Source of the DNA: a virus
IMG/VR virus record: IMGVR_UViG_3300047472_000084
Coordinates: 1-47,501 of that record
Length of the DNA: 47,501 nucleotides
Direction: 5' to 3' (one strand)
Numbering within the stretch: the first letter of the stretch is position 1; the number at the start of each line of letters is the position of its first letter. Positions 1,379 to 43,354 of the stretch are shown piece after piece. The translations under genes were made by a program, and so were the position numbers. Under the pieces are notes generated by a model. It was not told where the DNA came from. It worked only from the letters and a program-made list of their open reading frames with translations, and searched no databases.

Positions 1379-2877
1379 TGCCAGTCTACGCGGGAGCAAC
1401 CGCGCCGTCTGCGTTCAAGGTCGGCTCGGCCGACTGCTCGGCAATCTACGCAGGCTCCACCCTCGTGTGGTCCGCTGCCGTCGCCCCGACGACCCAGGCG
1501 TACTACAGCGACACGTTCTCCTCGACCCTCTCGCCCGTGTGGAAGAAGGCGGGAGCCAACGGTACCGTCACCATCGTCAGCGGCAAGATGGTCATCAACC
1601 CGGGCACTACCGCGGCCTACACGGGCGGCGTGGGCGTGCTCCTGGGCGACCCGGCGAACCTCGGCGGCAACTCCACAACTGGAGCCCCGGCAGCTATCTC
1701 GGACATCGACATGACGTTCGATGTGACGCTCGTGAACCTCCTGGAGCAGTACCCCGCCATCACGCTCGGAGCCCGCACCGCGGACCTCTGGGTCGGTGGC
1801 GCGGGTGACGGCTCGCCGAAGTCCGGCAGCATGATCATCCTGGAGCCCGGCGCGAACGGCGGGCAGATCGAGTTCCAGAACGGCTACGCCGCGGGCACCA
1901 CGACAGGCACCACGCCCTTCACGTTCCCCGGCACGTCGTTCACCATGCGCATCGTCGCAACCGGCAAGCGGCTCCAGATCCGCGCCTGGACCGTGGGCGG
2001 CACGCAGCCAACCACCTGGGGTTACGACAACGCCAACCACATCATCGACCAGTCCGACGGCTTCGTGCTGTTCACCGCGTCGAACGGTGGCCAGACCGGC
2101 ACGGGCAACCAGCAGGCGAAGACGTTCTCCATCGACAACTTCGTCTCGACCGTCCCCATCCGCCAACTCGGCACGGCAGTCGCCGCTCCCACGACGGATC
2201 CCGCTGGCTTCACGCGGCTCATGACGGAGAACTTCGACACCGCCGCCGCAGCAGGCACGGGCGCCGGGCAGTTCATGACCGTCTACGCCAACTCGTTCCA
2301 GCCGTACGACGAGGCGTCCCCGTACTTCCCGCGGGCGATGAACTCGGCCCACGATGGCGTCCTCGACATCACCCTCGACGGCACCCGCGGGTCGGCCGGT
2401 TCGTTTGGCTCCCCGTCGAACTACTTCAACCGTCTCGGCGGCAGGTTCGCCATGCGAGCCAAGGCCATCGGCGGCATCGGCAACGGCCCGGCGTTCATGC
2501 TCTGGCCGTCCTCCGGCGTCTGGGCTGACGGCGAGGTCGACTTCCCCGAGTCGGTATCCAGTTCCGGCGGGCAGTACGGCTTCCAGGACTCCCCCTGGAT
2601 CCACCAGCACTCCATGGTGGTCGGGTCGGAGGCCAACGCACAGGACGTCAACCTCGGCGTCTCCTGGCGTGACTGGCACGTCTACGCGGTCGAGTGGAAG
2701 CCGGGCACGTCGGCGAACGTCGGCGGCTCGCTGAAATACTACGTCGACGACGTCCTCGTTTACACGTCCACGACTGACATCCCGTTCACGACCCACCGGT
2801 TCATGTACCAGGTCGGCAACTACGGCGGTGCCGGTCACCTCTACATCGACTGGGTTACGATCTCGACCCTCTCGTAG
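1378..2877 (+). CDS. Minor tail/fibre protein with GH16-like glycanase domain
   Basis: 499 residues. The first ~40 residues (VYAGATAPSAFKVGSAD...) resemble short attachment domains of actinophage tail proteins. Residues ~45-260 form a beta-sandwich-like region. From ~280 to the end the sequence resembles glycoside hydrolase family 16: the motif GEVDFPES places E386, D388 and E391 in the E-x-D-x-x-E pattern that carries the GH16 nucleophile and acid/base. A typical GH16 C-terminal sequence follows (WHVYAVEW, YYVDDV). Likely role: a tail-borne depolymerase that cuts a host surface glycan during adsorption. GTG start 1378 overlaps the upstream stop. Substrate unknown. This is the last gene before a terminator, closing the late operon. 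Confidence 0.8.
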   Translation: MPVYAGATAPSAFKVGSADCSAIYAGSTLVWSAAVAPTTQAYYSDTFSSTLSPVWKKAGANGTVTIVSGKMVINPGTTAAYTGGVGVLLGDPANLGGNSTTGAPAAISDIDMTFDVTLVNLLEQYPAITLGARTADLWVGGAGDGSPKSGSMIILEPGANGGQIEFQNGYAAGTTTGTTPFTFPGTSFTMRIVATGKRLQIRAWTVGGTQPTTWGYDNANHIIDQSDGFVLFTASNGGQTGTGNQQAKTFSIDNFVSTVPIRQLGTAVAAPTTDPAGFTRLMTENFDTAAAAGTGAGQFMTVYANSFQPYDEASPYFPRAMNSAHDGVLDITLDGTRGSAGSFGSPSNYFNRLGGRFAMRAKAIGGIGNGPAFMLWPSSGVWADGEVDFPESVSSSGGQYGFQDSPWIHQHSMVVGSEANAQDVNLGVSWRDWHVYAVEWKPGTSANVGGSLKYYVDDVLVYTSTTDIPFTTHRFMYQVGNYGGAGHLYIDWVTISTLS

Positions 2878-2890
2878 CACGACCTGCCCC

Positions 2891-2916
2891 CGGCTTCGGC
2901 TGGGGGCTTGTCGTCG
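2891..2916 (+). terminator. Terminator-like hairpin closing the late operon
   Basis: Just after the stop of the GH16 fibre gene, GCCCCCGGC and GGCTGGGGGC pair around a short TTC-containing loop. The following bases are only moderately T-rich. The position at the end of the late genes and before a leaderless promoter supports termination. Confidence 0.6.
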
Positions 2917-2930
2917 TTCACAGGACCTGC

Positions 2931-3119: not shown

Positions 3120-3295
3120 CCCACTCGTTCTGGCTCAACTTCCTCATCATCCTGGGGATCTTCACGGGGGGCGTCGGAGTGATCGTCGGCTTTGCTGTGC
3201 TCCTCGCCTTCGCCCCCACGTGGGTGTATGGCATCGCGATCGGCGGCATCCTCATCGCCTACATCGCCTACCTGGCAAAGGTGGTGACCAAGTGA
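3116..3295 (+). CDS. Small two-helix membrane protein
   Basis: 59 residues starting VTHSFWLNFLIILGIFTGG. Two hydrophobic segments are visible at about residues 8-33 and 38-55, separated by FAPTWVYG, with a short Lys-containing C-terminus. It overlaps both neighbours by four bases (GTGA), so translation is coupled. No family recognised. Its place in an early-type operon before a nucleotide kinase does not suggest a lysis role; an effect on the host membrane is possible but speculative. Confidence 0.65.
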   Translation: MTHSFWLNFLIILGIFTGGVGVIVGFAVLLAFAPTWVYGIAIGGILIAYIAYLAKVVTK

Positions 3296-5878: not shown

Positions 5879-6424
5879 GTGAGCGTTTACACCACGTACG
5901 ACGACGGCATCTACCAGGACAGCGACGGGGACATCGTCCTGGTCGACGACAACCAGGCCGCCCTCATCGGCACCGGTCACAACGGTGACACGTACATCGA
6001 CCTGAGCCGGTCGAAGAAGATCGCCGACCTCCCGCGCAACCAGAACGTGAGCCTGCCCGCCCCGGCGCCGGAGCCGGTCAAGCCGCCCCGTCTCGCCGAC
6101 GGCGTCTACCAGTACATCGACGGGGAGATCGTACAGAGCATCGACGGGGAAATCCACACCCTCCTCTCGTCTGACTCCTGCCCGGACCACGACGTCTTCT
6201 GGAACAGCCTCGACCTCGACGACTTCGACGACCTGGTCCGCCTGACTGCCGCTCCCTTCGAGACCCCGCGCGACGGTGTCTACACCGACAAGGATGGGGA
6301 CTTCACCCTGTTCAAGGACGGCCAGGGCTACTGGCTCACCCCGATCGAGGCACCGGACTTCTCCGACCCGTACCCCGCCCCCGAGTTCTACGCGCCCTAC
6401 ACCCCCCTCGTGGAGGCCAAGTAA
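5879..6424 (+). CDS. Acidic protein with three DG(I/V)Y repeats
   Basis: 181 residues from the GTG at 5879, chosen because AAGGAGG lies four bases upstream. Three related motifs are spaced along it: DGIYQDSDGDIVLVDD near the N-terminus, DGVYQYIDGEIVQSIDGE in the middle and DGVYTDKDGDFTLFKDG near the C-terminus, joined by a Pro-rich linker (APAPEPVKPP). This suggests three small beta-hairpin modules. The protein is strongly acidic. No known family recognised. Codons 3-5 of the gene contain a GTTTACAC motif. Confidence 0.75.
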   Translation: MSVYTTYDDGIYQDSDGDIVLVDDNQAALIGTGHNGDTYIDLSRSKKIADLPRNQNVSLPAPAPEPVKPPRLADGVYQYIDGEIVQSIDGEIHTLLSSDSCPDHDVFWNSLDLDDFDDLVRLTAAPFETPRDGVYTDKDGDFTLFKDGQGYWLTPIEAPDFSDPYPAPEFYAPYTPLVEAK

Positions 6425-7037: not shown

Positions 7038-7315
7038 GTGACACCCAGGCCACGGCCATCACCCTCTACACCAAGCCGAACTGCGTGCAGTGCACGGCGA
7101 CCAAGCGCTTCCTCGACAGCCGTGGCCTGGAGTACACCACGGTCGACGTCACCGAAGAGCCCGACGCCCTCGCGTTCATCAAGGGCCTCGGCTACCTCGC
7201 AGCCCCGGTCGTTTACACCCAGCGCGAGCACGAATACGATCCCGGCAAGACAACCACCATCGTCGAACACTGGTCCGGCAATCAGCCCGACCGCATCAAA
7301 GCGATCATCAAGTAG
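7034..7315 (+). CDS. nrdH: NrdH-type glutaredoxin, probable CTG start
   Basis: 93 residues if read from CTG 7034. The fold signature is complete: ITLYTKPNCVQCTATKRFL gives the CxxC active site (C17, C20), and LGYLAAPVVYT supplies the cis-Pro loop before a beta strand. NrdH proteins pass electrons from thioredoxin reductase to ribonucleotide reductase, supporting dNTP supply; no reductase gene is in this phage, so the host enzyme would be the partner. No ATG or GTG precedes the first Cys in this frame; the only other start (GTG 7085) lies between the two active-site Cys. AGGAG at 7021-7025 is well placed for the CTG. Confidence 0.85.
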   Translation: MSDTQATAITLYTKPNCVQCTATKRFLDSRGLEYTTVDVTEEPDALAFIKGLGYLAAPVVYTQREHEYDPGKTTTIVEHWSGNQPDRIKAIIK

Positions 7316-9295: not shown

Positions 9296-9636
9296 CCAAC
9301 CCCAACAAGGCCAAGGGCACCGCCCTCGAAACCGCGGTCGTGACCTACCTCAAGGAGCACGGCATCCCGGCCTACCGCCCCGCCCAGGCAGGCTACAAGG
9401 ACACCGGCGATATCCACGGCGTCTCGCCCGTCATCATCCAGGCCAAGAACTGGAAGGACATCCCCTCCGCACTCCGCGAGGGCGTCGACGGCGCCAACAA
9501 GCAGCGTGTAAACGCCGGTGAGCGCTGGGGAGTCGCCGCCATCAAGCGCCCACGCAAGGGGGTCGCCGACACCTACGTCGTCATGGATCTCGCCACTTTC
9601 GCAGAAGTGCTTGCCGAACTCCGCGACCACGTGTAG
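9292..9636 (+). CDS. Hjc-like PD-(D/E)XK nuclease (Holliday junction resolvase type)
   Basis: 114 residues. KGTALETAVVTYLKEHG supplies the N-terminal catalytic Glu (E13), GYKDTGDIHG the Asp (D40) and PVIIQAKNW the Q-x-K pair (Q50, K52), which is the fold signature of archaeal Hjc-type resolvases and of phage nucleases annotated as resolvases. Length suits a dimeric junction resolvase. Likely role: resolving branched replication or recombination DNA before packaging. A promoter overlaps its stop codon. A GTTTACAC site in reverse orientation lies at 9506. Confidence 0.8.
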   Translation: MTNPNKAKGTALETAVVTYLKEHGIPAYRPAQAGYKDTGDIHGVSPVIIQAKNWKDIPSALREGVDGANKQRVNAGERWGVAAIKRPRKGVADTYVVMDLATFAEVLAELRDHV

Positions 9637-10742: not shown

Positions 10743-13182
10743 TCTTCTCGACCGCCTCGCCGAAGTCTCCGAGGAGTCTGACGGCTGGCTCGCCGTCTGC
10801 CCCGGCCACGCCGACTCCAAGCCGTCCCTCCGCGTCTCCGTCGGCCAGACCAGCAAGGTGCTCCTCAAGTGCCGCGCAGGCTGCACCACCGAGCACGTCC
10901 TCGACAGCCTCGGCATGGACATGGCTGACCTGACGCACATGGCCCAGGGTGACGCCACCCCGCCGACCACTGCGCGCTCCACGTCCGCCCAGGCCACCCC
11001 CGGCGCCATCGCGGGCCTCGCCATGCGTCTCGACGGCTACGAGAGTGCGTTCGGCTTCGACGCAGGCCCCGCGGTCGACGCTCGGCTGTATGCCCTGCAC
11101 CGATTCGGTCTGGAGTTCGCCGACGCTTACCGGCTCGGTCTCGGCTACACCGACGACCTCGGCGGCAACGTCCCACGCCTCGTCGTGCCCTTCCGCACCC
11201 CCCAGGGTGTTGCCCGCAACTTCCAGGCGCGCGCTCTCGACCCGTCGGCCAAGGTCCGCTGGCAGGGCCCGAAGAGCCCCGAGGGTGGCTCCTGGTCGCC
11301 CCTCGGCTGGTTCCCCGGCGAGTCCGGCTGGTCTGAGGTCGTCATCGCTGAGGGCCCGGGCGACGCCCTGACCGCCGCTGCCGTCGGCTACGACACCATC
11401 GGGGTAGCAGGTGCTGCCCGAGTCAACAACCCGGCCATCGTCGCTGAGATCGCCCAGTGGACCACGGGACGCCCCGTCGTCATCGCAGGCGACGGTGACG
11501 CCGCAGGCCGCCAGTTCTCCGCGACCCTCGCCAAGGGCCTCATCGAACTCGGCGCCCACGTCCGCGTCCTCAACCTGCCCGACGGCGTCGACCTGAACGA
11601 CTGGCGCCTCACCGACCCGGCAGGGTTCCAAACGGCCCTCATCCGTGCCATCGAGAACGCCGAGACCACCACCACCTCGGCCACCGTCCGCGCCCGCTGG
11701 GACGACGCCAAGTACGAGATGACCGACCTCGGCAACGCCCAGTACCTCCGTGACTGGGTCGCTGGCCAGGGCTCCGGCGTTAAGTACAGCGCCGAGACCG
11801 GCTTCTACATCCTCCAGGACGGCATCTGGCGCCGCGACATCTCCGAGCAGATCCGCAAGGCCGCCCAGAGCGTCGCCAAGGATCTCGCCGCCCTCGCCAA
11901 GGACGCCCGCATCGAGGCCAGCAAGGAAGGTGCCGACGCCAAGATCATCGGCTTCTCCAAGGCCATGACCGCGCACTCCCGCTACACCCAGTCGACCAAG
12001 GGCATCGACTCGATGATCCGCGAACTCCGGCCCATGGTCGCCGTCGCACTCACCGAGTTCGACGCGCACCACCACCTCCTCGCCGTCAAGAACGGCGTGG
12101 TCGACCTGCGCACCGGCGAACTCCTCGCGCACGACCCGACGTACCTCATCACGCGCCAGGTCGAATTCAACTACCGGCCCGAGGCCACCGCCCCGCGCTG
12201 GGCCCAGTTCCTCACCGAGGTCTTCCCCGGCCAGTCCGGCATGCCCGAGTACATGCAACGCCTGACCGGCTACGGTGTCTCGGGTGAGACGGACGAGCAG
12301 TGCTTCTGCATATTCTACGGCACCGGCTCCAACGGCAAGAGCGTTTACACGGACACTCTCACCCGGATCTTCCAGGACATCACCACCACGACGCCCTTCT
12401 CGACCTTCGAGCAGAAGCCGAATGGCGGCATCCCGAACGACATCGCAGCCCTCAATGGGGCCCGCATGGTCGTCGCGTCCGAGGGCGAGGCCGGACGGTT
12501 CATGAACGAGTCGCTGATCAAGCGAGCCACCGGTAAGGACCCCCTCACCGCCCGCTTCCTCAACCGCGAGTTCTTCACGTTCTACCCGGAGTTCCTGCTC
12601 ACCCTCCTCACCAACGCCAAGCCCACCTTCCGCGGCGCTGACGAGGGCCTGTGGCGCCGTGTCAAGTTGATCGCCTGGGAACGGCACTTCGCCCCGTCCG
12701 AGCGCGATCCCCGACTCCCCGCGAAGTTGCTCGCCGAGGCCGAAGGCATCCTCGCCTGGGTCGTCCGCGGCGCCGTCGACTGGTATGCCAACGGGCTTCA
12801 GGATCCCGGCCGCATCAAGGACGCCACCGCCGAGTACCGTGCTACGAGCGACATCATGGATGGCTTCCTCCCCGGCGTCTTCATCAAGGACGAGAACGGC
12901 AAGGTCGAAGCCACCAGCGTGTTCAAGGCGTTCCAGGAGTGGGCCGACAGTGAGAACCACCTCGACCTCAAGAAGTGGTCCTCCCGTGCCTTCTACGGCG
13001 CCATGGAGGAGCGTCAGGTGATCCGCAAGCGGTCCACCGGCGGCAAGTTCGTCCTCCAGGGCATCCGCCGCGCTCCCCGCACGGCCGACAACCCCGAGTG
13101 GGCCGCAGCCCAGGAGCCCGCCGTCGAGCGGATCCTCGAAGGCGGCGGACCGATGCAAGGTGCAGACCTCGACATCGTGTGA
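10714..13182 (+). CDS. Primase-helicase (zinc finger, Toprim, SF3 D5/P4-type)
   Basis: 822 residues that should prime and unwind DNA at the phage fork. A zinc finger lies at C29, H32, C53, C57 (CPGH...CRAGC). A Toprim domain (~205-285) has EGPGDAL and AGDGDAAG, the acidic residues of DnaG-type primases. After a linker comes a D5-type helicase: Walker A GTGSNGKS (536-543), a Walker B-like VVASEGE, and LTNAKPTFRGADEGLWRRVKLI, the conserved stretch of SF3 helicases. ATG 10714 (CGGAGA upstream) is chosen over later starts because it keeps the zinc finger. A GTTTACAC motif lies directly in the Walker A coding region. DNA polymerase follows downstream. Confidence 0.9.
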   Translation: MPTPPKTLPDLLDRLAEVSEESDGWLAVCPGHADSKPSLRVSVGQTSKVLLKCRAGCTTEHVLDSLGMDMADLTHMAQGDATPPTTARSTSAQATPGAIAGLAMRLDGYESAFGFDAGPAVDARLYALHRFGLEFADAYRLGLGYTDDLGGNVPRLVVPFRTPQGVARNFQARALDPSAKVRWQGPKSPEGGSWSPLGWFPGESGWSEVVIAEGPGDALTAAAVGYDTIGVAGAARVNNPAIVAEIAQWTTGRPVVIAGDGDAAGRQFSATLAKGLIELGAHVRVLNLPDGVDLNDWRLTDPAGFQTALIRAIENAETTTTSATVRARWDDAKYEMTDLGNAQYLRDWVAGQGSGVKYSAETGFYILQDGIWRRDISEQIRKAAQSVAKDLAALAKDARIEASKEGADAKIIGFSKAMTAHSRYTQSTKGIDSMIRELRPMVAVALTEFDAHHHLLAVKNGVVDLRTGELLAHDPTYLITRQVEFNYRPEATAPRWAQFLTEVFPGQSGMPEYMQRLTGYGVSGETDEQCFCIFYGTGSNGKSVYTDTLTRIFQDITTTTPFSTFEQKPNGGIPNDIAALNGARMVVASEGEAGRFMNESLIKRATGKDPLTARFLNREFFTFYPEFLLTLLTNAKPTFRGADEGLWRRVKLIAWERHFAPSERDPRLPAKLLAEAEGILAWVVRGAVDWYANGLQDPGRIKDATAEYRATSDIMDGFLPGVFIKDENGKVEATSVFKAFQEWADSENHLDLKKWSSRAFYGAMEERQVIRKRSTGGKFVLQGIRRAPRTADNPEWAAAQEPAVERILEGGGPMQGADLDIV

Positions 13183-16904: not shown

Positions 16905-17686
16905 CCCACAACATCATCGACACCCTCGACCGCATCCCTAACCCGCCGCGCTCGGACGTCGAACGCGCCGAACTGATCGAACTCTCCCGTATCGGTGACG
17001 AGAGCGCCAAACTGGCCCTTCTCCGCATCTACCTCGCGCCCATCCTCAAGGAAGTCACCCGTGCCACCCGCAACGCCATCGGCGCCGGGCTGGTCTCCCA
17101 GGCGGACTTCGCGTCCACGCAGGAGGAGATCCTGAGCGAGGCCATCCTGGTCTTCTACCGTGTCGTCGAAGCCTTCGACCCCGCCCGCGGCATGCGGGGA
17201 TTCGTCACCTTCCTCACCCGAGCCCTGCGCAACGACGAGGGTGTAAACTCCGCCTCGAACCGTGCCCGCCCCATGCGGGTGCCGATGAACACGGCCATCA
17301 TGCGCACTCACGCCATCAAGGCCGCCGACGGCGACATCGACAAGGCCCGTGACCTCGCGCCGCAGTTCGGCCTCACCAAGAGCACTTTCGACGCCATCAC
17401 CCGCGTCTTCCAGTCGGACGTCCCCATCGACGACGCCACGGCAACGGGCATGGACCGCAACTACGTCCGCATCGAACACCTCCAGGACACGGGCCGCGCT
17501 CTTGCCGCCCTCGACTTCACCACCCGCATGATCGTCGAGTCCTCCTACGGTCTCAACGGGCAGCCCCAGCAGTCCAACCATGAGATCGCTGCGAACCTGG
17601 GAATCAGCCGACGTACCGTGCAGCGGCGCCTGGAGTCGGCTATGCTGACCATGCGTAACGAACTCAACCCCGAGGAGGAATCGTGA
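16901..17686 (+). CDS. Sigma-70-like transcription factor
   Basis: 261 residues. The N-terminal half has the helical outline of sigma region 2 (LLRIYLAPILKEVTRATRNA, then EEILSEAILVFYRVVEAFDP and RGMRGFVTFLTRALRNDEGV). The C-terminus resembles region 4: ALAALDFTTRMIVESSYGLN, SNHEIAANLGISRRTVQRRL, ending with a basic helix. It should bind host RNA polymerase and -35-like DNA. The region linking the halves has a second HTH-like segment (AAPQFGLTKSTF-like, LAPQFGLTKSTFDAI). A phage sigma factor here could direct late transcription. A reverse GTTTACAC site lies at 17241. Confidence 0.72.
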   Translation: MTHNIIDTLDRIPNPPRSDVERAELIELSRIGDESAKLALLRIYLAPILKEVTRATRNAIGAGLVSQADFASTQEEILSEAILVFYRVVEAFDPARGMRGFVTFLTRALRNDEGVNSASNRARPMRVPMNTAIMRTHAIKAADGDIDKARDLAPQFGLTKSTFDAITRVFQSDVPIDDATATGMDRNYVRIEHLQDTGRALAALDFTTRMIVESSYGLNGQPQQSNHEIAANLGISRRTVQRRLESAMLTMRNELNPEEES

Positions 17687-19551: not shown

Positions 19552-19727
19552 TGGTCAAGTGCACCGAGTGTGTAAACAGCCGTGACGGCTGGCTCAACCC
19601 GCGGGATGCCACGCTGACCTGGCACAAGGGGCTGTTCGACGAGCAGCATGTGTGTCCAAGATGTTACAGCAAACTGTACATGCGCTGTAAGCGCGGGTCA
19701 GGCGCGGGCGAGAACTGGCGTTCCTGA
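19551..19727 (+). CDS. Zinc-ribbon miniprotein 5
   Basis: 58 residues starting MVKCTECVNSRDGWLNPRDA, then CPRCYSKLYMRCKRG. CTEC and CPRC form a four-Cys ribbon with a basic C-terminus, fitting nucleic-acid or protein binding. It contains a reverse GTTTACAC motif (codons GTG-TGT-GTA-AAC region at 19570). Last gene before the second iteron element. Confidence 0.68.
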   Translation: MVKCTECVNSRDGWLNPRDATLTWHKGLFDEQHVCPRCYSKLYMRCKRGSGAGENWRS

Positions 19728-25721: not shown

Positions 25722-26309
25722 ATGTCGACCCCCGCGTTCCACTCGACCCGTGAGGCATGGCTCACAGCAGCCGTCCGCGACCTCGCTCCCCTCTTCGACG
25801 CCGTAGGCGAGTCCCTGCCGCCCGTTCGCGTCTCCGTGGGATGGCCGGGTGGCCGGGGGCGTAAAAACGCCGTCATCGGCCAGTGCTGGGCTCCTGACGC
25901 CGCAACCGATGGCGTGTCCCAACTCTTCATCAGCCCGACGCTGAATGACCCGGCCGTGATCCTCTCGACGCTGGTCCACGAACTGGTTCACGCGGTCGAC
26001 CGCAACACGTCCGGCCACCGCGGCCGATTCGCCAAGATCGCCCGTGCGGTCGGTCTGACCGGCAAGATGACCGCCACGACGGCCGGAGAGGCCCTAGCCG
26101 CCCGTCTAACGGCCGTTGCGGCCGGGCTTGGCACATTTCCCCATGCGGCCCTACGTTCGGGCGCTGACGGGGCGCACAAGCCGCAGGGGACCCGCATGCT
26201 CAAAGTAGAGTGCCCGAACTGCGGCTACATCGTCCGCACGACGGCCAAGTGGCTGGACCAGGGCGTGCCGACTTGCCCGTGCGGCGCGCACATGATGGCG
26301 GATGCCTGA
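25722..26309 (+). CDS. SprT-like zinc metallopeptidase
   Basis: 195 residues. LSTLVHELVHAVD carries the HExxH zinc site (H86, E87, H90); the N-terminal half (VSVGWPGGRGRKNAVIGQCW, then VSQLFISPTL) follows the SprT fold order; a C-terminal zinc-ribbon shows CPNCGYIVR and CPCG. SprT/SPRTN-family proteases can digest proteins cross-linked to DNA. In a phage this might remove roadblocks during replication or act on a host protein; the substrate is not known. ATG 25722 is adopted. Confidence 0.8.
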   Translation: MSTPAFHSTREAWLTAAVRDLAPLFDAVGESLPPVRVSVGWPGGRGRKNAVIGQCWAPDAATDGVSQLFISPTLNDPAVILSTLVHELVHAVDRNTSGHRGRFAKIARAVGLTGKMTATTAGEALAARLTAVAAGLGTFPHAALRSGADGAHKPQGTRMLKVECPNCGYIVRTTAKWLDQGVPTCPCGAHMMADA

Positions 26310-26398
26310 ACCTGGGAAAGTGCCTAGAGACTCGTTTACACCCTCGCGATGGGCCTAGGTTGGTCTTATCAAGTTAGATCAACGAAAGGGTCGAAACC

Positions 26399-29014: not shown

Positions 29015-30682
29015 TTGGAGGCCATCCTCACCCAACCTGATTTCCCGCTAGACAACAGCATCAAGTCCCTCGGCTGGGGCGTAGCCGTCTGGATGCAGGC
29101 GTACCTACTCGACCCCGAGGGCGCTGGCCCGTTTACACTCACCCGTGAGCAGTTGAACTTCCTGCTCTGGTTCTACGCAGTCGGCGACGACGGCCGGTTC
29201 CTCTACCGCCGCGCCACGCTCCGCCGCGCTAAGGGCTGGGGTAAGTCCCCGCTCCTCGCGGCCATCGCGCTCGCAGAGTTCGCCGGTCCCGTCCGCTTCT
29301 GGCACCTCGACGAGAACGGCTACGCCGTCGGCCAGGCCGTCAGCATGCCGGTCATCCAGATCGCCGGTATCGCGTTCTCGCAGACGAAGAACACCATGGA
29401 CGTCATCCGTGCCATGGCCCAGAGCCCCGCGCTCGCCGAACTGTGTGGCTTCGACGCCAACAGCATCGGCCTGACGCGCATCATCTCGCCCGACGGCGCC
29501 CAGATCTACCCCATCACCGCCTCTGCCCGCGCGCAGGAAGGCGCCCGTCCGACGTTCATCATCATGGACGAGACGCACCACTGGACTGAGTCCAACCGCG
29601 GCTGGGATCTCGCCGACGTCATCCGCCGTAACCTCACGAAGGTCGACGCTCGCTCCATCGAGACGACCAACGCGCACGAGCCCGGCGAGGACAGCGTCGC
29701 TGAGAAGTCCTACCTGGCCTACCTCTCGCAGCGCGAGGGCAAGACCCTCGACGAGACGATCCTCTACGACTGCCGTGAGGCACCCGGCGACATCGACCTC
29801 GGCGACCCCGAGCAGGTCCGCGAAGGGCTCATCGCAGCCTACGGAGACGCCCACTGGGTCAACCTAGACCGCATCCTCTCCGAGATCTACGACCCGAACA
29901 CGGCGCCGGAAGAGGCTCGCCGCTTCTACCTAAACCAGATTGTCGCCTCGGCGGACTCCTGGGTCGCCCCGCACGAGTGGGACGCCAACTACAGCGCTGA
30001 GACCGCCCCGCTCAAGTTCGGCCCCGCCGACCGCCGCATGGGCTGGAAGCAGGGCGACACCGTCACCCTCGGGTTCGACGGATCGCTCACCGACGACTCC
30101 ACGGCGCTCGTAGCCACTCGGCTCAGCGACGGCGCAGGTTTCCTCCTGGCTGTCTGGGAGAAGCCCGAAGGGCCACTCGGCCGCAACTGGGAAGTCCCCA
30201 AGGACGTCGCCCGCGGCGTGGTCGAGAACGTCTTCGCCACCCTCGACGTCGTCGCATTCTTCGCTGACGTCGCCCTCTGGGAGACAGACGTGGACGCCTG
30301 GCGCGACGAGTACGCTGAACGGCTGGTCGTCAAGGCTACCACCAAGCACGCCGTCGGCTGGGACATGCGTGGCCACCAGTTGGACACCACTCGCGCCGTC
30401 GAAGCCCTCAACCGGGCCATCGTCGAGCACGAGACGCCCTGGGGCCCTCACTTCCTCCTCAACGACCCCACGGTCCGAGCGGACGAAGTGCTCAAGCGCC
30501 ACGTCCTCAACGGCCGTCGCCGCCTCAACCGCTGGGGCGTCTACTTCGGCAAGGAGAGCCGCGAGTCGCCTAAGAAGGTCGACGCTCTCGCCGCCCTCAT
30601 GCTCTCTCGAATGGCCCGTGCCCGCGTCCTCGCGGACGGGTCGTACCGTCGTCGCTCGTCCGGTCGAGTCTACGGCTTCTGA
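29015..30682 (+). CDS. terL: Terminase large subunit
   Basis: 555 residues from TTG 29015 (CCAGGAGGCCCAC upstream). ATPase: Walker A AKGWGKS (72-78) and Walker B TFIIMDE (D185, E186). C-terminal RNase H-like nuclease: LGFDGSLTDDSTAL (D355), VAFFADVALWETDVDAW and SPKKVDALAALMLS. It pumps DNA into the prohead and cuts concatemers. A GTTTACAC site at 29131 is kept with the rare codons TTT-ACA. Confidence 0.93.
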   Translation: MEAILTQPDFPLDNSIKSLGWGVAVWMQAYLLDPEGAGPFTLTREQLNFLLWFYAVGDDGRFLYRRATLRRAKGWGKSPLLAAIALAEFAGPVRFWHLDENGYAVGQAVSMPVIQIAGIAFSQTKNTMDVIRAMAQSPALAELCGFDANSIGLTRIISPDGAQIYPITASARAQEGARPTFIIMDETHHWTESNRGWDLADVIRRNLTKVDARSIETTNAHEPGEDSVAEKSYLAYLSQREGKTLDETILYDCREAPGDIDLGDPEQVREGLIAAYGDAHWVNLDRILSEIYDPNTAPEEARRFYLNQIVASADSWVAPHEWDANYSAETAPLKFGPADRRMGWKQGDTVTLGFDGSLTDDSTALVATRLSDGAGFLLAVWEKPEGPLGRNWEVPKDVARGVVENVFATLDVVAFFADVALWETDVDAWRDEYAERLVVKATTKHAVGWDMRGHQLDTTRAVEALNRAIVEHETPWGPHFLLNDPTVRADEVLKRHVLNGRRRLNRWGVYFGKESRESPKKVDALAALMLSRMARARVLADGSYRRRSSGRVYGF

Positions 30683-30705: not shown

Positions 30706-32187
30706 ATGGTCGACATCACCCCGACCCTCGCCGAAGAGGCAAGCAGCACGCTCCGTGCGCAGTTCATCAACGACTCCGCGCTGGCGAAGGTCAAGTCGTA
30801 CCTCAGCGGCGACCAGGATCTCCCGTACATGCCCTCGTCGCAGTCCTACCGGATCTCGAACGAGTACAGCGACATCGCTCGCCGGGCAGTCTCCAACTGG
30901 CTGCCGCTCGTGTCGGACACGTTCGTCAAGCGCCTCTTCGTGGAGGGCTACCGCCCCACGGACGCGTTCGACAACTCGAAGCCCTGGGAATACTGGCAGG
31001 CCAACGGCCTCGACGCACGCCAGACCATCGTGCACCGCGCGGCCATCGAGTACGGCGTCTCGTACGTCCTCGTCCTCCCTGGCAACCTCGGCGCCAACCC
31101 GTCCCCGATGCCGTACATCAAGCCGCTCTCGCCCTTCCGCGCGATGGCCTGGTACAACGACCCGGACGACGAGTGGGCGCAGTACGCGGTCGAACTCGCG
31201 GGCCAGGACGTCAACGGCAACGAGATCGTCAAGTTGTACGACGACCAGAACGTTTACACGTTCATCAAGCAGCCCTCGACCACCGTCGACGGCACGCACG
31301 GCGGCGTCACCGCGCCGACCATCGTGCACCCCGAGTTCACGCTGTCTGACACGCAGCGTCACGGCCTCGGCGTCGTCCCGCTCGTCCGCTTCCGTGAGCG
31401 CCTGGAGGACAACCCCTACGGGGCCCTGTTCCCGCTCCTCAAGGACCAGGACAAGATCAACGAGATCACGTTCTCGATCCACATGGCGTTCCAGTACGGC
31501 GTGTTTCGTCAGCGCTGGGTCTCCGGCATGGCCGTCCCCGTCGACGACAACGAGAACGCGCTCCCGCCCTTCCAGGCTGGCATCGACCGCCTGTGGGTCG
31601 CGGAGAGCCCGGACACCAAGTTCGGCGAGTTCCAGCAGACCGACGTCTCTAACCACCTGATCGCCTACCGCGACGCCGTCAAGACGTTCGCGGCTCACGC
31701 GGCCATCGACCCGAACATGCTCACCGGCGACGTCGTCAACGTCTCCGCTGCGTCCCTCGGCTCCCTCAAGGACTCGACGACCCAGCAGGTCGAGCAGTAC
31801 AAGATGATCTTCGGAGAGTCCTGGGAGCAGGTGTTCCGCCTCGCGGCCACGGCCGACCCCACGGCACCGGTCAGTGACCGCGAAGACCTCATGGCCCAGA
31901 CGCGCTGGCGCGACGACACGTCGAGCGAGTTCCTACAGACCATCGAAGGTCTCGCCATGCTGTCCGAGAAACTGGGTGTCCCCGGCGAGGCCCTGTGGGA
32001 GAAGATCCCCGGCATGTCCGACCAGGACATCCGCCACTGGCACGAGGTCGCCGACCAGCAGGCCGACAACGACCCCATCGCCACGCTCGCAGCGCAGTTG
32101 CAGAAGAACGGCGCCACGCCGAACCTGAACCCGGAGGATGAGACCGCAGATGTCGACGCCCCCGCTTCTGGACCAGTCACAGGCTGA
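30706..32187 (+). CDS. Portal protein
   Basis: 493 residues from ATG 30706 (GGAGGTGCTCCCGG upstream). Position, length and the sequence of helices (NWLPLVSDTFVKRLFVEGYR, KDQDKINEITFSIHMAFQYG, VSAASLGSLKDSTTQQVEQY) fit SPP1/HK97-type portals. It forms the dodecameric DNA gate. A GTTTACAC site lies at 31252. Confidence 0.88.
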   Translation: MVDITPTLAEEASSTLRAQFINDSALAKVKSYLSGDQDLPYMPSSQSYRISNEYSDIARRAVSNWLPLVSDTFVKRLFVEGYRPTDAFDNSKPWEYWQANGLDARQTIVHRAAIEYGVSYVLVLPGNLGANPSPMPYIKPLSPFRAMAWYNDPDDEWAQYAVELAGQDVNGNEIVKLYDDQNVYTFIKQPSTTVDGTHGGVTAPTIVHPEFTLSDTQRHGLGVVPLVRFRERLEDNPYGALFPLLKDQDKINEITFSIHMAFQYGVFRQRWVSGMAVPVDDNENALPPFQAGIDRLWVAESPDTKFGEFQQTDVSNHLIAYRDAVKTFAAHAAIDPNMLTGDVVNVSAASLGSLKDSTTQQVEQYKMIFGESWEQVFRLAATADPTAPVSDREDLMAQTRWRDDTSSEFLQTIEGLAMLSEKLGVPGEALWEKIPGMSDQDIRHWHEVADQQADNDPIATLAAQLQKNGATPNLNPEDETADVDAPASGPVTG

Positions 32188-32962: not shown

Positions 32963-33054
32963 TCATTACCCGTCCTAACGACGAGTAACCTCGCCGCAAC
33001 TCACTCGCTCGCAGGCCGAGCGTTTACACCTACGGCACAGGAGGCCGCAACACA

Positions 33055-36232: not shown

Positions 36233-36790
36233 GTGGCTGGAAACGCCGATAACACCTCCCTTTGGACCGGCGCGGACGTTTACACCGCTCCCAAGGGCAC
36301 CGCTGGTCCCACCGACCTGACTGCTGTCTGGCCCGTTGCCTGGAAGGCTCTCGGCCTTCTCGACGGTGGCGAAGGCTTCGTCGAGTCTCGTGACCAGACG
36401 ACCAACAACCACTACGCCTGGGGCGGCATCCTCTACCGCAAGTCGGTCTCGGAGCAGTCTCGAACGTTCGAGTTCACGGCGCTGGAGGACAACGACACCG
36501 TCTTCCTCCTCGCCAACCCCGGCTCGACGTCGACCACCGCCGCTGGTGTGCGCACGCGCACGTCCATCACCCCCAAGGCGGGCTTCCACTTCGCCCTCGG
36601 CCTCGAAACCCGTGATGGGGATCGCATCAAGCGCCGTGTCCTCCCGGACTGCGAGGTCGAAGAGATCGATGACATCACGGAGAACGAAGAGGACCCGACG
36701 GTCTACAAGTTCACTGTGACCGTGTACCCGAACGCCGACGGCGTCCTGTACACGACCATCGAGACCGACCCGTCCACCCTGGACGACTAA
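36233..36790 (+). CDS. Major tail protein
   Basis: 185 residues from GTG 36233 (AAGGAGAACCT upstream). DNTSLWTGADVYTAPKGTAG and the later beta pattern (SRTFEFTALEDNDTVFLLAN, YKFTVTVYPNADGVL) fit the tube-forming V protein. A GTTTACAC motif lies in the codons for VYT. The terminator-like hairpin after it suggests extra expression. Confidence 0.85.
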   Translation: MAGNADNTSLWTGADVYTAPKGTAGPTDLTAVWPVAWKALGLLDGGEGFVESRDQTTNNHYAWGGILYRKSVSEQSRTFEFTALEDNDTVFLLANPGSTSTTAAGVRTRTSITPKAGFHFALGLETRDGDRIKRRVLPDCEVEEIDDITENEEDPTVYKFTVTVYPNADGVLYTTIETDPSTLDD

Positions 36791-37510: not shown

Positions 37511-40018
37511 ATGGCCGTTGTCGGTTACGCTACCATCCAACTCATCCCCTCCCTCCAGGGGTTCGCAGGGGCCGTCAACTCCCAACTGACTCCGGCCGCC
37601 AACAAGGCGGGCTCCACCGCGGGTAAGTCCTCCGGCGGCCTGTTCTCTGGCGGCTTCATCGGTGCGGTCACCAAGATCGCCTCGGCGGCGGGTATCTACT
37701 CGGCCATCTCCGGCATCGCTAGCGGCTTCTCCAACGCCATCAAGACCGGCCTCCAGGGCAACGCTAACCTCCAAGCATACTCCATCTCCTTCGAGACCCT
37801 GCTCGGCTCTGCCAGCAAGGCCAAGGACATGATCTCGGAACTCTACACGTTCGCCGCGGCAACGCCGTTCGACGTGGAGGGTTCCGTCGTCGGCGCCCAG
37901 AAACTCCTCGGCGTGGGAGTCGCGGCCAAGGACATCATCCCGACCCTGACCACCCTCGGTGACGCCGTCGGTGCGCTCGGTGGAGGCACGGAACAGTTCA
38001 ACGCCGTTCTCCTCGCGTACAGCCAGATCATGGCGCGTGGCAAGGTCTCGACGCAGGATCTCTACCAGATCTCCAACACCGGTATCCCGATCTTCCAACT
38101 GCTCTCCCAGGCACTCGGCAAGCCCGTCGGGGAGATCCAGAAACTGATCGAGACCGGCAACCTGGCGTCTAAGGACGTCCTGCCCCAACTGCTCAAGGTC
38201 ATGAACCAGGACTACGGCGGGGCTATGTCCAAGCAGGCGGCTACGCTCGGCGGGCTCTGGTCGACGTTCAAGGACACGCTCACCCAGACGCTCACCACGG
38301 CCCTCCAGCCGACGGCTGCGTTCCTCCAGGGCGTACTTCCCGGCGCTACTACGGCGGCATCCGGTGCCATCCTTGGCCTCGCCAAGGGTGTCGGCGCTAT
38401 CGGCGGAGTGTTCAAGGCCGTCTTCACCAGCGACACGTTCATGGCGTTTGTCAACCCCATCGTCACGATGGTAAAGACCATCGGTAACGCACTCGCTCCG
38501 CTGGGCGCGCAGTTCGGCAAGGCATTCGATTCTATCGGCGGCTCGCTCTCTGGCGTGCTCCCGCTGTTCACGCCGTTCTCGACCCTGCTCTCCTCGATGC
38601 TCCCGCTCGTGACCCCACTGGTCTCCCTCATCGGCGGGGCCCTGGCGGACGCGTTCGGCATCGTCGCCAAGGTGCTCGTTGCACTGGAGCCGGTGGGTCA
38701 GACCTTCGGCCGACTCTTGACCGCCCTTGGAACTACCCTGACGGGTGCGCTCCTCCCGGTGTTCCGGCAGATCATTCCGGCGATCCAACCGCTCCTGGAC
38801 ATGTTCATCAGTATGGCCTCAACGGTTATCCCCCCGCTGGCCACGGCGTTCAACCAGATCGTCAGCGCAGTGGGCGGCGCGTTCCTCCAGGTGTTTACAC
38901 AACTGTCGAGCGTTGTCTTCCCGCTGTTCGTCTCGGTTCTCCAGACGATCATCCCAGTCATCATGCAGGTCGTACAGGCGATCATCCCGTTTGTCACGAC
39001 GCTGGTCTCCCAACTGGCGCCTGTGTTCGTGCAACTGATCACTACGCTCCTCCCGCCGATCATGAGCCTGTTCAACGCGCTCGTGCCGATCCTCCAGGCG
39101 ATCATCCCGCCGGTGCTCAGCATCGTCTCGACGATTGCAGGCTTGCTCCTGCCGATCTTCCAGGCTATCATGCCGGTCATCTCGGCGGTCGTCAACGCCG
39201 TGGTACCGATCATCAAGTCCCTCGCTACCATCATCGCGGGGGTCGTGAACATCATCACGGGTCTGCTGACGGGTAACTTCTCGCAGGCATGGAAGGGCGC
39301 CCAGCAGGTCGTTTCCGGTGTCTGGGGCGTAATCAAGGGCGTCGTCGTCGGCGCTGTGAACATCATCAAGGCTGCCATCACCGCTGCCCTCAGCATCATC
39401 AAGACGGTGTGGAACGCCACCTGGACAATCGTCGGCACGGCGCTCAAGGCAGCGTGGGACGCGGCAGTCGCCGTCGTCAAGACAGGCGTCGACCTCGTAC
39501 TGGGTGCCGTCCGCGGCATCAAGAGCAAGGTTGCCGACTTCTTCAACGGCGCTGGCTCCTGGCTCCTGAACTCTGGTAAGGCACTCGTCGAGGGGTTCAT
39601 CAAGGGTATCACGAACGCCGCGGGCGCGGTCGGCGACGCGGTCGGCAAGGTCGTCCAGAAGGCCCGTGACTTCTTCCCGTTCTCCCCGGCTAAGACCGGA
39701 CCGTTCTCGGGCAAGGGCTGGACGCTTTACTCCGGCCGCTCCCTGGTCGATGGCTTCGCTGACGGCATCGGGGACCGCACCGGCGCACTCCGCAAGGTAA
39801 TGGACAACACGTTCTCGACGCCTGACGTCGCAGCCGTGGACGTCAGCACCACCGCGGGTAAGGGCGTCTCCGGGGCGCTCTCCGACGTGTCCACGGCGCT
39901 GTCCACTAAGGGCGGCGCCTACATCGGCGCGGTCAACTTCCAGGGCTCGGACACGAACGCCGCGATGGTAGGGGACCTCAACTTCTACCTGCGCAACTAC
40001 GCCCGAGGAGGCCGCTAA
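37511..40018 (+). CDS. Tape measure protein
   Basis: 835 residues from ATG 37511 (AGGAGCGCG upstream). The N-terminal third has the phage tape-measure core (AYSISFETLLGSASKAKDMI, YQISNTGIPIFQLLSQALGK). The middle consists of hydrophobic helices with repeated LLP/IIP patterns. The C-terminus has FFPFSPAKTGPFSGKGWTLY, a motif common in actinophage tape measures. At about 0.15 nm per residue, a tail near 125 nm is expected. A GTTTACAC site lies at 38893. Confidence 0.92.
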   Translation: MAVVGYATIQLIPSLQGFAGAVNSQLTPAANKAGSTAGKSSGGLFSGGFIGAVTKIASAAGIYSAISGIASGFSNAIKTGLQGNANLQAYSISFETLLGSASKAKDMISELYTFAAATPFDVEGSVVGAQKLLGVGVAAKDIIPTLTTLGDAVGALGGGTEQFNAVLLAYSQIMARGKVSTQDLYQISNTGIPIFQLLSQALGKPVGEIQKLIETGNLASKDVLPQLLKVMNQDYGGAMSKQAATLGGLWSTFKDTLTQTLTTALQPTAAFLQGVLPGATTAASGAILGLAKGVGAIGGVFKAVFTSDTFMAFVNPIVTMVKTIGNALAPLGAQFGKAFDSIGGSLSGVLPLFTPFSTLLSSMLPLVTPLVSLIGGALADAFGIVAKVLVALEPVGQTFGRLLTALGTTLTGALLPVFRQIIPAIQPLLDMFISMASTVIPPLATAFNQIVSAVGGAFLQVFTQLSSVVFPLFVSVLQTIIPVIMQVVQAIIPFVTTLVSQLAPVFVQLITTLLPPIMSLFNALVPILQAIIPPVLSIVSTIAGLLLPIFQAIMPVISAVVNAVVPIIKSLATIIAGVVNIITGLLTGNFSQAWKGAQQVVSGVWGVIKGVVVGAVNIIKAAITAALSIIKTVWNATWTIVGTALKAAWDAAVAVVKTGVDLVLGAVRGIKSKVADFFNGAGSWLLNSGKALVEGFIKGITNAAGAVGDAVGKVVQKARDFFPFSPAKTGPFSGKGWTLYSGRSLVDGFADGIGDRTGALRKVMDNTFSTPDVAAVDVSTTAGKGVSGALSDVSTALSTKGGAYIGAVNFQGSDTNAAMVGDLNFYLRNYARGGR

Positions 40019-40891: not shown

Positions 40892-40901
40892 GGAGCCACC
40901 T

Positions 40902-41897
40902 GTGGCATTCGATCCGGTCCCGTGGTTCGTCGGCGGAGGTGCACAGCACTCTCCCGAGGTCGCACGCACCCTGGCCTACGCGGCCACCGGCGGCGCTGAG
41001 GGCGTCGTCACTCCGGGCGACCTCAAGGTCACCCCGACGTCCGTCCCGGGCAACAAGGTCCAGGTCGCGGACGGCGCAGCGCTGATCCTCAACCGCGCAG
41101 CCGCGTCCGACAACCAGACCTACGTCGCGCGCATGAGCACGGCCGACCAGGTCGCCATCGCGGCAACCACCTCCAGCGGCGGCCGTACCGACCTCATCGT
41201 CGCGCAGATCGAGGACCCCTGGCTCTCCGGCGAGCCCTGGCAGGATCCGGTAGACCCGACCGTTGGACCGTACGTGTTTACACGCGTGATCTCGAACGTC
41301 CCGGCAGGCACCACTCGCCTCCAGGACGTCTCGGGCTACGCGGGTCGCACGGCTGTCACGCTCGCTCGCGTCACCATCCCAGCGTCCACCGCGACGATCA
41401 CCGCGTCCATGATCACCGACCTGCGTACCCTCGCTCGTCCCCGCTCGCAGCGGATCGTCGCCAAGGGCACCATGGCGGCTCAGACGCTGACGATCTCGAC
41501 CGGCTGGCAGAACTTCCCGCAGAACCCCATCACGAACATCCAGGTCCCCACGTGGGCGACCCACGCGACCATCGTGATGAACAGCACGCTCCGCTACCTC
41601 AGCGGCAACGCAGCGGGTAACCTCCAGTCCTTCCTCGGGCCGGTGAACCAGTTCGACGACACCACCCTCTACGGCGACCAGTACCTCGACACCACCGTCG
41701 TCGGCGGCGAGTACCGACAGCCCATGATGAACCCGTCAGACGGCTACTGGGCCATCCCGGCGTCCATGCGTGGCACCACCGTCGCGCTGTCCAGCCGGTT
41801 CAAGGGCGCCAGCACGGCGACCAACGGGGCCCAGATCCGAACCGGCGACGGCGACTACTACTTCGCCGACATCACCTTTGTGGAGCGTACAGTCTAA
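40902..41897 (+). CDS. Minor tail (baseplate) protein
   Basis: 331 residues from GTG 40902 (AAGGAGCCACCT upstream), starting VAFDPVPWFVGGGAQHSPEV. ADGAALILNRAAASDNQTYV and VSGYAGRTAVTLARVTIPAS are shared with baseplate/minor tail proteins of actinophages. The C-terminal half is beta-rich, possibly a receptor-facing domain. A GTTTACAC site at 41276 uses rare TTT-ACA codons. Confidence 0.78.
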   Translation: MAFDPVPWFVGGGAQHSPEVARTLAYAATGGAEGVVTPGDLKVTPTSVPGNKVQVADGAALILNRAAASDNQTYVARMSTADQVAIAATTSSGGRTDLIVAQIEDPWLSGEPWQDPVDPTVGPYVFTRVISNVPAGTTRLQDVSGYAGRTAVTLARVTIPASTATITASMITDLRTLARPRSQRIVAKGTMAAQTLTISTGWQNFPQNPITNIQVPTWATHATIVMNSTLRYLSGNAAGNLQSFLGPVNQFDDTTLYGDQYLDTTVVGGEYRQPMMNPSDGYWAIPASMRGTTVALSSRFKGASTATNGAQIRTGDGDYYFADITFVERTV

Positions 41898-43354
41898 TGA
41901 CCAAGTGGCGGTACATCGCGCAGCGCGCAACGACAGGGCAGATCCTGGAACTCGAAGTCCCGTTCCTGACCCGAAGCGAACTGACGTGGTCACTCTCCGC
42001 CGCAGGCTCGCTCAAGGGCACGGTCTCCCCTCAGACTGGGGCGCTCACCGCAATGGATGGGCGCCCCATGTTCGAGGAGTGGAACACGCTCCTCTACGCC
42101 GAGGCGGACGGTCAGATCCGCTGGGGCGGCATCGTCATCTCCTCAGAGGCCACGGGATCCACCTGGAGCATCGAGGCGGCCACCTTCGCCACCTACCCCG
42201 CGGGCATGCCGTACCTCGGCGAATACTACGGGGCAGAGGTCGACGTCGCTGACGTCATCCGCGAGATCTGGTCGCACCTCCAGTCGTTCGACACGGGCGA
42301 CCTCGGCGTGCAGGTCACGGGCACCACCGGCGTCACCGTAGGTAGCCACTCGGAGGACGCCGCCAACGCAGCGACCGCCGCGTACAACGCTGCCTACAAG
42401 ACCTACACGACCGAGCGTGACAAGTACACCGCGCTCCGTGCCACGGCGACCGCGCTGAGCAAGACGAAGTCCGACAAGATCGCCACTCGCACCACGGCCT
42501 CCAAGAACCTCACGGCTGCCAAGGCGATCAAGCCCAAGAACCAGACGGCCATCAACAACGCACAGGCAGCCTACAACACTGCGAACGCCGCCGTCACCAC
42601 CGCGACGAACAACTACGCCGCTGCCGACGCCGCTGCCGACGCACAGGCCAAGGTCCGCGACGCGGCCAAGGTCAAGTCCGACAACGCCAGCGATGCCAAG
42701 AAGAAGGCCCTCGACGTCCAGAAGGACGACGGCGGCGCCTACAAACTGCTCTGGTGGGAAGCCCCGGACTGCGGAGCGAAGATCAAGGATCTCGCCTCCT
42801 CGACCCCGTTCGACTACACCGAGATCCACTCCTGGAACTCGGACAAGACCGGCATCGACCACACCATCCAGGTCCAGTACCCGCGTGCTGGCCGACGCCG
42901 CGACGACCTCGCGTTCATCATGGGCGACAACGTCACCCTCGTGCCGACCGCGAAGTCCAACGGCGACGACTACGCCAACACGATCTTCGGCCTCGGCAAC
43001 GGCGAGGGTGAGGCGATGATCCACACCACCTCCGCGGTCAACGACGGCCGTCTCCGCCGTGTAAACGTCCTGAGCAACAAGGACACGAAGCAACTCTCAC
43101 TGCTCCAGGCCCAGGCTCGCCAGGCGCTCCTCCAGGCCGTCGCCAACCTGACCATCGACCAGATCTCCGTCAAGGACCACCCGAACGCCATTATCGGCTC
43201 GTGGGCCCTCGGCGACGACATCCTCGTCCAAGCCGACCTCCCCTGGCTCGGGCGTCTCAGCATCTGGCACCGCATCGTCTCCTGGTCGCTCACCTCGGAC
43301 TCCACTGCGACGCTCAAGTTGGAGCGAACGGACTCCTTCACCTACGGAAAGTAG
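41897..43354 (+). CDS. Minor tail protein with inserted coiled coil
   Basis: 485 residues. N- and C-terminal parts resemble tail-tip proteins of the Gp37-like (ReqiPepy6-type) group (TGQILELEVPFLTRSELTWS; NAIIGSWALGDDILVQADLP). Between them residues ~150-280 are a long Ala/Lys/Thr coiled coil, unusual in length, which would protrude from the hub. A reverse GTTTACAC site lies at 43059. ATG overlaps the previous TAA. Confidence 0.77.
   Translation: MTKWRYIAQRATTGQILELEVPFLTRSELTWSLSAAGSLKGTVSPQTGALTAMDGRPMFEEWNTLLYAEADGQIRWGGIVISSEATGSTWSIEAATFATYPAGMPYLGEYYGAEVDVADVIREIWSHLQSFDTGDLGVQVTGTTGVTVGSHSEDAANAATAAYNAAYKTYTTERDKYTALRATATALSKTKSDKIATRTTASKNLTAAKAIKPKNQTAINNAQAAYNTANAAVTTATNNYAAADAAADAQAKVRDAAKVKSDNASDAKKKALDVQKDDGGAYKLLWWEAPDCGAKIKDLASSTPFDYTEIHSWNSDKTGIDHTIQVQYPRAGRRRDDLAFIMGDNVTLVPTAKSNGDDYANTIFGLGNGEGEAMIHTTSAVNDGRLRRVNVLSNKDTKQLSLLQAQARQALLQAVANLTIDQISVKDHPNAIIGSWALGDDILVQADLPWLGRLSIWHRIVSWSLTSDSTATLKLERTDSFTYGK

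Follow-up and report, generated by a model that had tools for sequence, protein, structure and literature searches.

What reads a short DNA word that recurs round an entire viral genome is the question raised by IMG/VR record IMGVR_UViG_3300047472_000084, of which positions 1 to 47,501 (hereafter the window, i.e., the whole stretch of DNA analysed) carry the octamer GTTTACAC in 17 exact copies. An earlier note, made from the letters alone, had described this word as dispersed, oriented and evenly spaced and had left its reader open, no repressor having been found; a strong candidate is now at hand, namely the gene of a SprT-like protein (25722-26309). There is good support for the word being where a phage-coded, autoregulated control system acts, and it is rather probable that it acts as operator and stoperator of a repressor, which would most likely be the SprT-like protein itself. 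The case is built on the enrichment and conservation of the word, its placement at promoters in AZ and EH phages, its co-occurrence with the SprT-like gene, the co-variation of word and gene from lineage to lineage and the location of the word upstream of that gene; binding, repression and the maintenance of lysogeny are what we infer from these. The first 127 bases of the window are repeated at the end of the record, which suggests that the window is a complete genome.

The word in the window and in its relatives

The count agreed with the claim of at least 17 exact copies, 13 of 17 on the coding strand, since 13 copies were found on the plus strand and 4 on the minus strand. Fewer than one copy had been expected by chance, and the mean over 100 dinucleotide shuffles of the window was indeed 0.26 (largest 2); under a second-order Markov model of the window, GTTTACAC ranked first of all 8-mers, with 17 observed vs 0.15 expected, and all 24 of its single-base neighbours summed to 7 occurrences. 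The even spacing was likewise recovered, with a coefficient of variation of the gaps of 0.48 and none of 2000 random placements as even, the gaps round the record running from 1326 to 7200 bp. The sites were confirmed to occupy three reading phases, namely phase 0 (seven sites), phase 1 (three, each a minus-strand word) and phase 2 (three), as judged on gene calls from a simple caller of our own; four sites fall outside called genes, one of which (19570) lies within an 84-aa open reading frame (ORF) skipped by the caller. The sites and the candidate gene are distributed as follows.

2758..2765, plus: GTTTACAC site within gene 1378-2877 (GH16-like domain)
5885..5892, plus: GTTTACAC site at the start of ORF 5879-6424, 37 bp 3' of a GTGTAGTAT promoter-like element
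7211..7218, plus: GTTTACAC site within ORF 7085-7315
9506..9513, minus: GTTTACAC site in resolvase-like gene 9292-9636; exact in 4A and G026
12343..12350, plus: GTTTACAC site in the primase/helicase gene (NGKS-VYTD); kept in 10 other word-bearing genomes
17241..17248, minus: GTTTACAC site within sigma-factor-like gene 16901-17686
19570..19577, minus: GTTTACAC site outside called genes, within uncalled 84-aa ORF 19473-19727
21885..21892, plus: GTTTACAC site within ORF 21639-22205
24535..24542, plus: GTTTACAC site in no called gene; ORF 24616, which opens a run of called genes ending in the SprT-like gene, starts 73 bp on
25722..26309, plus: SprT-like protein with a metalloprotease fold, 195 aa, HExxH...H and C-terminal zinc ribbon; candidate reader
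26334..26341, plus: GTTTACAC site 24 bp past the SprT stop, beside a TAGAGACT -10-like element and before ORF 26399
29131..29138, plus: GTTTACAC site in the terminase large subunit gene; seven relatives carry the word 6 nt further on
31252..31259, plus: GTTTACAC site in the portal gene (VYTF); kept in 12/12 other word-bearing genomes with VYTF
33022..33029, plus: GTTTACAC site in no called gene, with a scaffolding-protein-like gene (33055) starting 25 bp on
36278..36285, plus: GTTTACAC site in the major tail protein gene; kept in 4A only
38893..38900, plus: GTTTACAC site in the tape-measure gene
41276..41283, plus: GTTTACAC site in a minor tail gene; kept in G006, shifted 2 nt into another frame in Cassia and G008
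43059..43066, minus: GTTTACAC site in a minor tail gene
4093, 5839, 7354, 7657, 9631, 13556, 15914 and 27717, all plus: GTGTAGTAT, mostly a short way upstream of early genes

The last of these lines belongs to the runner-up of the 8-mer census, ATACTACAC, which reads GTGTAGTAT on the plus strand (8 copies in the window). It is enriched too, but resembles a promoter -10 element, which it probably is; lying mostly before early genes, it was rejected as a rival control word, and GTTTACAC kept the top of the census.

BLAST matches relate the window to Bacteriophage 4A and to Arthrobacter phages of cluster AZ, where GTTTACAC is again the top 8-mer of each genome counted (4A 13, Wildwest 25, VroomVroom 18, Cassia 23). 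Over 20 AZ/EH-like genomes, 370 exact copies stand against 104 for the 24 single-base neighbours together, and the 370 copies are preceded by C or T in 356 cases and followed by G or A in 339, for which reason the site is read as YGTTTACACR, an imperfect palindrome. Evenness extends to Araceli and G004 (0/2000 random placements as even in each) and is not unusual in G021 (607/2000) and Zeta1847 (255/2000). The orientation bias claimed for the window holds in AZ relatives but is absent from the Streptomyces phages Araceli (19 plus, 22 minus) and Marky (13 plus, 22 minus); in G021, 24 of 24 copies share one strand. Six control phages (BlueFeather, Verse, Astro, Bradshaw, 3T and Richie) contain neither GTTTACAC nor the variant GTTTAAAC, and a search of the word-poor relatives found no replacement word of comparable strength.

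In the portal gene, the peptide VYTF is encoded with GTT TAC AC in the window and in all 12 of the other word-bearing genomes that have it, whereas the five word-poor genomes with VYTF, two of which (G005, G024) look alike at this site, all use GTC TAC AC (0/5 with the word); word-bearing genomes in which this peptide is missing are also without the word at this place. The proposal that the word is kept by codons rare in the genome was assessed through orthologues only, i.e., by this difference in the codons of VYT. Selection on the DNA word is supported, as had been proposed, by conservation in place at several sites, sometimes in another frame as in the minor tail gene of Cassia and G008. 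Persistence in relatives is partial, and for at least five sites (7211, 17241, 21885, 38893 and 43059) none of the relatives compared carries the exact word in the aligned position.

The SprT-like gene as companion of the word

A terminase search gave 62 loci, of which the 36 longer ones were counted over whole records; in the 25 records of at least 30 kb, counts were bimodal, with either 10-26 copies or 0-2. All 14 such records with a SprT-like gene were word-rich (11-26 copies) and 10 of the 11 without it had 0-2 copies, an association (14/0 with the gene, 1/10 without) with a Fisher probability of 3e-6 when relatedness is ignored. Among 122 query genes, namely 46 of the 65 of Wildwest and all 76 called in the window, the SprT-like gene (gp46 of Wildwest) was alone in being present in 18 of 20 word-rich and none of nine word-poor relatives (five long, four partial), the two word-rich records without it being G002, a 20-kb fragment, and G019. 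In primase and polymerase, Wildwest is more closely related to the word-poor G011 and G023 than to the window. As word and gene go together, the SprT-like protein is likely the switch keeping these viruses quiet.

The same company is kept in phages far from cluster AZ. SprT-bearing AZ, EH and Streptomyces phages of at least 30 kb hold 11-41 copies of GTTTACAC, with the exception of the AZ-like record G038 (9); Araceli has 41 (36 of them within a 50-kb part for which the expectation is 0.05) and Marky 35, and 22 and 33 were counted in the EH phages Zeta1847 and Honk, respectively. Unrelated Streptomyces, Burkholderia and Dinoroseobacter phages with a SprT-like gene bear the word or its variant GTTTAAAC, and most SprT-bearing genomes devoid of GTTTACAC hold either GTTTAAAC (G053 21, R5C 17, Mica 7, PT1 6, Persinger 4, ep3 4) or GTTTATAC (G054 7, G070 6). 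A reversed control pattern matched twice in Mica, never in Persinger, 4 times in PT1, 5 in ep3 and once in R5C. The family can be written GTTTA[C/A/T]AC with palindromic flanks. In 22 of the 25 SprT-selected records of at least 30 kb, at least six sites of some type were present, the other three being G055 (3), G059 (0) and G068 (0). Because these lineages were chosen by SprT, their sharing of the gene is uninformative, and what informs is the presence of the word together with the narrower sharing of other gene families. Structural-gene searches for independent relatives were too sparse to use (one locus for Mica, five for Araceli).

Word and gene also vary together. On a tree of 36 SprT-like proteins, with four mixed and three word-poor rows left out, the word type (C, A or T) required four changes, whereas 500 shuffles of the labels required at least five (mean 8.4). 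Moreover, the word tends to stand just before the gene. In 26 of 43 genomes, the 100 bp before the SprT start contain a copy (26 of 40 once the three genomes with fewer than four words are set aside, as in a binomial test that ignores relatedness), start codons being set by a simple rule that may be wrong in G026, G018 and G070. This upstream word directly follows the -10 element in AZ phages, Mica, PT1 and G073, and sits in the -35/-10 spacer in G052, G061, G055, G021 and Honk. In the best 80 of 250 IMG/VR stretches with SprT relatives, a set including near-duplicates and records also among the 43 genomes, 44 loci have the word among the 180 bp that precede the aligned start, where 6.2 would be expected judging by the remainder of each locus; it lies inside the gene in 21 and within 180 bp downstream in 25, at least one of these positions being occupied in 62. 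In the low-copy loci L302, L307, L310 and L311, the sole GTTTACAC or GTTTAAAC in the stretch examined is found inside sprT, near codons 120-125.

These distributions bear on whether the SprT-like protein reads the word itself or is the partner of a reader, i.e., an ImmA-like protease cleaving a separate word-binding repressor. Pairs of zinc protease and repressor are known, as in ImmA/ImmR, where a zinc-protease gene is likewise tied to prophage control, and the HExxH motif and third histidine of the SprT-like protein are invariant in 40 sequences. Unlike ImmA/ImmR, however, no conserved helix-turn-helix repressor gene accompanies the SprT-like gene in the tested lineages at BLAST sensitivity. 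At that sensitivity, and with antisense shadow frames of sprT excluded, no other gene family of five reference genomes occurs in more than five other lineages, the next most shared being DNA polymerase (five), and no second family was found to span all word-bearing lineages. Together with the word variant following the SprT tree and the position of the word just upstream of sprT in those 44 of 80 loci, this makes a separate repressor unlikely.

The protein itself bears the SprT/Spartan hallmark of HExxH plus a third zinc ligand. In the alignment of 40 sequences, H86, E87, H90 and H99 are invariant, and a GKMTAT stretch and the zinc ribbon are conserved. The PF10263 scores (13.9 bits for the window, 17.4 for Wildwest) are both under the gathering cut-off of 25.6. 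An AlphaFold model (pLDDT 88.8) has as VIA structural neighbours abylysin (Z 8.0), SPRTN (6mdw, 7.6) and Wss1 (5xbv, 7.2), which are not decisive alone; Foldseek with this model returned no match at E<=0.001, and nothing relevant came up when the SprT profile was searched against the sequences of PDB chains. The resemblance to the SPRTN/Wss1/SprT proteases (PMC5128726) comprises HExxH, the zinc ribbon and a probable likeness in fold, whereas the sub-cut-off Pfam score and the association with a single DNA word and with promoters of the phages set the present protein apart. The likeness of the predicted fold to SPRTN and Wss1 would also suit a Spartan-type crosslink repair protease, with the word as the site where a phage enzyme would become covalently attached to DNA. 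Since the word is placed like an operator at promoters and upstream of sprT, and since the family-sharing comparison of the five reference genomes found no shared crosslinking enzyme, such a role in repair is barely credible.

Promoters, prophages and the proposed repressor

With a promoter scan for TTG[AC][CG]N / TAnnnT elements, 79 of 374 words in the AZ/EH group fell on promoter-like elements, against 2.8 expected, and the offsets of these pairs from the -10 end were mostly 0/+1, directly after the -10 (35), and -19 (24). In three annotated phages, 14/25, 11/23 and 9/18 sites stand no more than 100 bp ahead of a gene, although such stretches account for only 13-14% of the genome. A word abutting -10 elements could also be a positive element, i.e., a discriminator or activator site for the sigma-like protein that these phages encode (window 16901-17686). 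Against this, a homologue of that protein is present in the word-poor G011, G020 and G023, many copies lie within genes and the words occur in both orientations, which together render a positive element very unlikely. The sigma-like gene was rejected as reader on the same count of homologues in word-poor genomes. Its product (Sigma70_r4, PHROG 351) has in Wildwest a homologue annotated merely as a DNA binding protein.

In the repressor scheme, YGTTTACACR would be operator and stoperator at once of a phage-coded transcriptional repressor, most likely the product of 25722-26309. At promoters of the phage it would cover the -10/+1 region or occupy the spacer between -35 and -10, thereby blocking initiation, and its own promoter would be among the targets in many phages. 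The copies inside genes would be evenly spaced roadblocks, stopping leaky transcription of the silent genome.

The parallel with stoperators, already drawn in the earlier note, fits the promoter positions of the word, and the candidate reader is of another kind, being SprT-like and without helix-turn-helix family match. In cluster A (L5 gp71, TipsytheTRex repressor), as set out in the available text of PMC9283540, at least 20 copies of a short site are similarly spread round the genome at promoters and elsewhere; words in AZ phages are, as there, mostly oriented with transcription, and the reader, phage-coded there, would be so here. The same text gives the cluster A site as 13 bp and asymmetric, here an 8-10-bp near-palindrome, and its reader as a helix-turn-helix plus stoperator domain, here putatively a metalloprotease fold. 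Also unlike cluster A, many copies are inside genes, variants recur across very distant phages and Streptomyces phages have no consistent strand bias. As the candidate reader differs, the system would work like stoperators without being a member of the cluster A family. The start-associated sequences of cluster K (PMC3203893, available part) share the dispersed, mostly one-way arrangement and a SprT-related gene is mentioned with them, but their sequence is another and they typically lie 3-7 bp before start codons; that part of the paper proposes no link of SprT to them.

Copies in host genomes offer a further view of where the word belongs. Of the 17 host-genome loci with a SprT-like gene, 11 have at least three GTTTACAC plus GTTTAAAC in the flanks examined, L308 being weak among them (3 GTTTACAC vs 0.47 expected). 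A stretch of 30.5 kb round the SprT-like gene holds 18 of the 43 GTTTACAC in the genome of Arthrobacter sp. EPSL27; in Arthrobacter sp. B2a2-09, 14 of 44 are on the 45-kb contig with that gene; in Kibdelosporangium, 19 of 48 are in 61.5 kb at the SprT prophage region; and Catellatospora has 13 of its 27 within the initial 34 kb of a contig where the gene is found at 39.8 kb. The genome totals (44, 43, 48 and 27) compare with 53, 16, 48 and 20 for the reversed control pattern, and because host copies concentrate at SprT prophages in all four genomes the word is considered phage-borne. This speaks to the other parallel offered earlier, Chi-like octamers, and more widely to a word of the Chi, KOPS or primase type read by a recombination, replication or packaging enzyme of host or phage. 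Such a word would suit the regular spacing seen in the window and in several of its relatives, and also the strand bias in AZ phages. Yet host copies are not spread but in or near one SprT prophage region, AZ/EH phages show preferred promoter offsets, Streptomyces phages have no consistent strand bias, and G011 and G023 keep primase, polymerase and a Cas4-like nuclease with 0-1 copies. Chi-like action, priming or exonuclease control is hence highly improbable, all the more so as the sequence of the word varies with phage lineage.

The SprT-like gene is at most two genes from an integrase in Mica, Persinger, Cassia, Wildwest and Powerpuff. According to the available text of PMC8758107, Powerpuff lysogens exclude Powerpuff, Lego and YesChef and are still infected, at reduced efficiency of plaquing, by BlueFeather, Giantsbane and Abba, no repressor being identifiable in Powerpuff. 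The three excluded phages have 27, 25 and 26 GTTTACAC, respectively, and all carry a SprT-like gene; the 16-kb genome of BlueFeather has no copy. The SprT-like protein may be the missing repressor of Powerpuff.

A number of observations weigh against a SprT-like repressor and should be set together. At the level of the protein, (i) it has no helix-turn-helix family match, and (ii) the invariance of its active site suggests that proteolysis matters. At the level of co-occurrence, (iii) G019 has its 10 copies without the gene; (iv) an AZ right-arm prophage remnant in EPSL27 has 7 GTTTACAC without SprT; (v) 6 of the 17 host-genome loci have 0-1 GTTTACAC plus GTTTAAAC; (vi) the SprT-bearing records G055 and G068 hold 3 and 0 sites; and (vii) Dismas, Celaena and Didgeridoo (ribbon only) have no copy, and MW2 and Epa5 one each. 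In ep3, (viii) 4 GTTTAAAC (11 strand matches to GTTTANAC) face 5 matches of the reversed control, owing to which its excess is doubtful. At the level of placement, (ix) the promoter scan is weak elsewhere, namely 4/116 in Streptomyces phages (0.8 expected), 7/165 in diverse phages (1.5) and 1/86 in A-type phages (1.9); and (x) the 160 bp preceding the SprT-like gene are free of the word in both the window and 4A, the nearest copies in the window being 24535, before the gene run, and 26334, just after sprT. Finally, (xi) several word-bearing phages, the window included, have no known integrase match, although absences in this BLAST survey with six queries are weak evidence, the Mica query being unsound (wrong strand, full of stops). 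For the window, profile searches with PF07508 and PF00589 were likewise without match, as the earlier note had found.

Tentatively, and more doubtfully than repression as such, a Spartan-like metalloprotease may have been turned into a sequence-specific, autoregulated genome silencer in phages from Actinobacteria to Proteobacteria, the protease being the induction switch. Single-stranded or damaged DNA would then trigger self-cleavage and free all roadblocks at once, with no LexA/CI-type domain. The analogy suggesting this is SPRTN, a DNA-switched, self-cleaving protease in the available text of PMC5128726. If the SprT-like protein does repress, immunity of the Powerpuff type would gain a testable candidate gene with its operators, the ‘SprT-like protease’ family (matches in 175 phage records) would include immunity repressors, and the gene would be a lifestyle marker overlooked by annotation; a repressor on a DNA-dependent protease fold would, moreover, be a new coupling of DNA damage to prophage induction. 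Judged by title and the start of the abstract, none of the papers listed in the literature searches ties SprT-like proteins or these words to phage repression, and among the matches listed for papers containing the letters of the word none is about it by title.

Further features of the window and its relatives

In the word-free Microbacterium phage Didgeridoo (L266), the SprT-like gene has shrunk to a 53-aa zinc ribbon (2986-3147), and weak matches to the same zinc-ribbon end alone are seen in three other phages. The motif GTTTCACGTGAAAC, which we take to be the bacterial ParB site parS, occurs exactly in VroomVroom (L011) at 4447, 4968, 17372, 19115, 25325 and 42666 and at five sites in G013. 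Neither genome has a match to the AZ/EH serine integrases used as BLAST queries, and on both grounds the host's ParB may maintain them as plasmid prophages. As a separate, parS-matching feature, GTTTCACGTGAAAC was set aside as a rival to GTTTACAC.

In the window, the product of 1378-2877, whose gene adjoins a tail gene, has a GH16 glycosyl hydrolase domain, is possibly a depolymerase and has no match in the other genomes of the window/Wildwest gene comparison. An AT-rich, CATG/TATA-rich island of low complexity spans 27170-27660, a little before the packaging genes. The sequence CACTTTTGTCACT forms two inverted-copy pairs of about 107 bp per pair, at 3939-4045 and 19746-19852, 16 kb apart.

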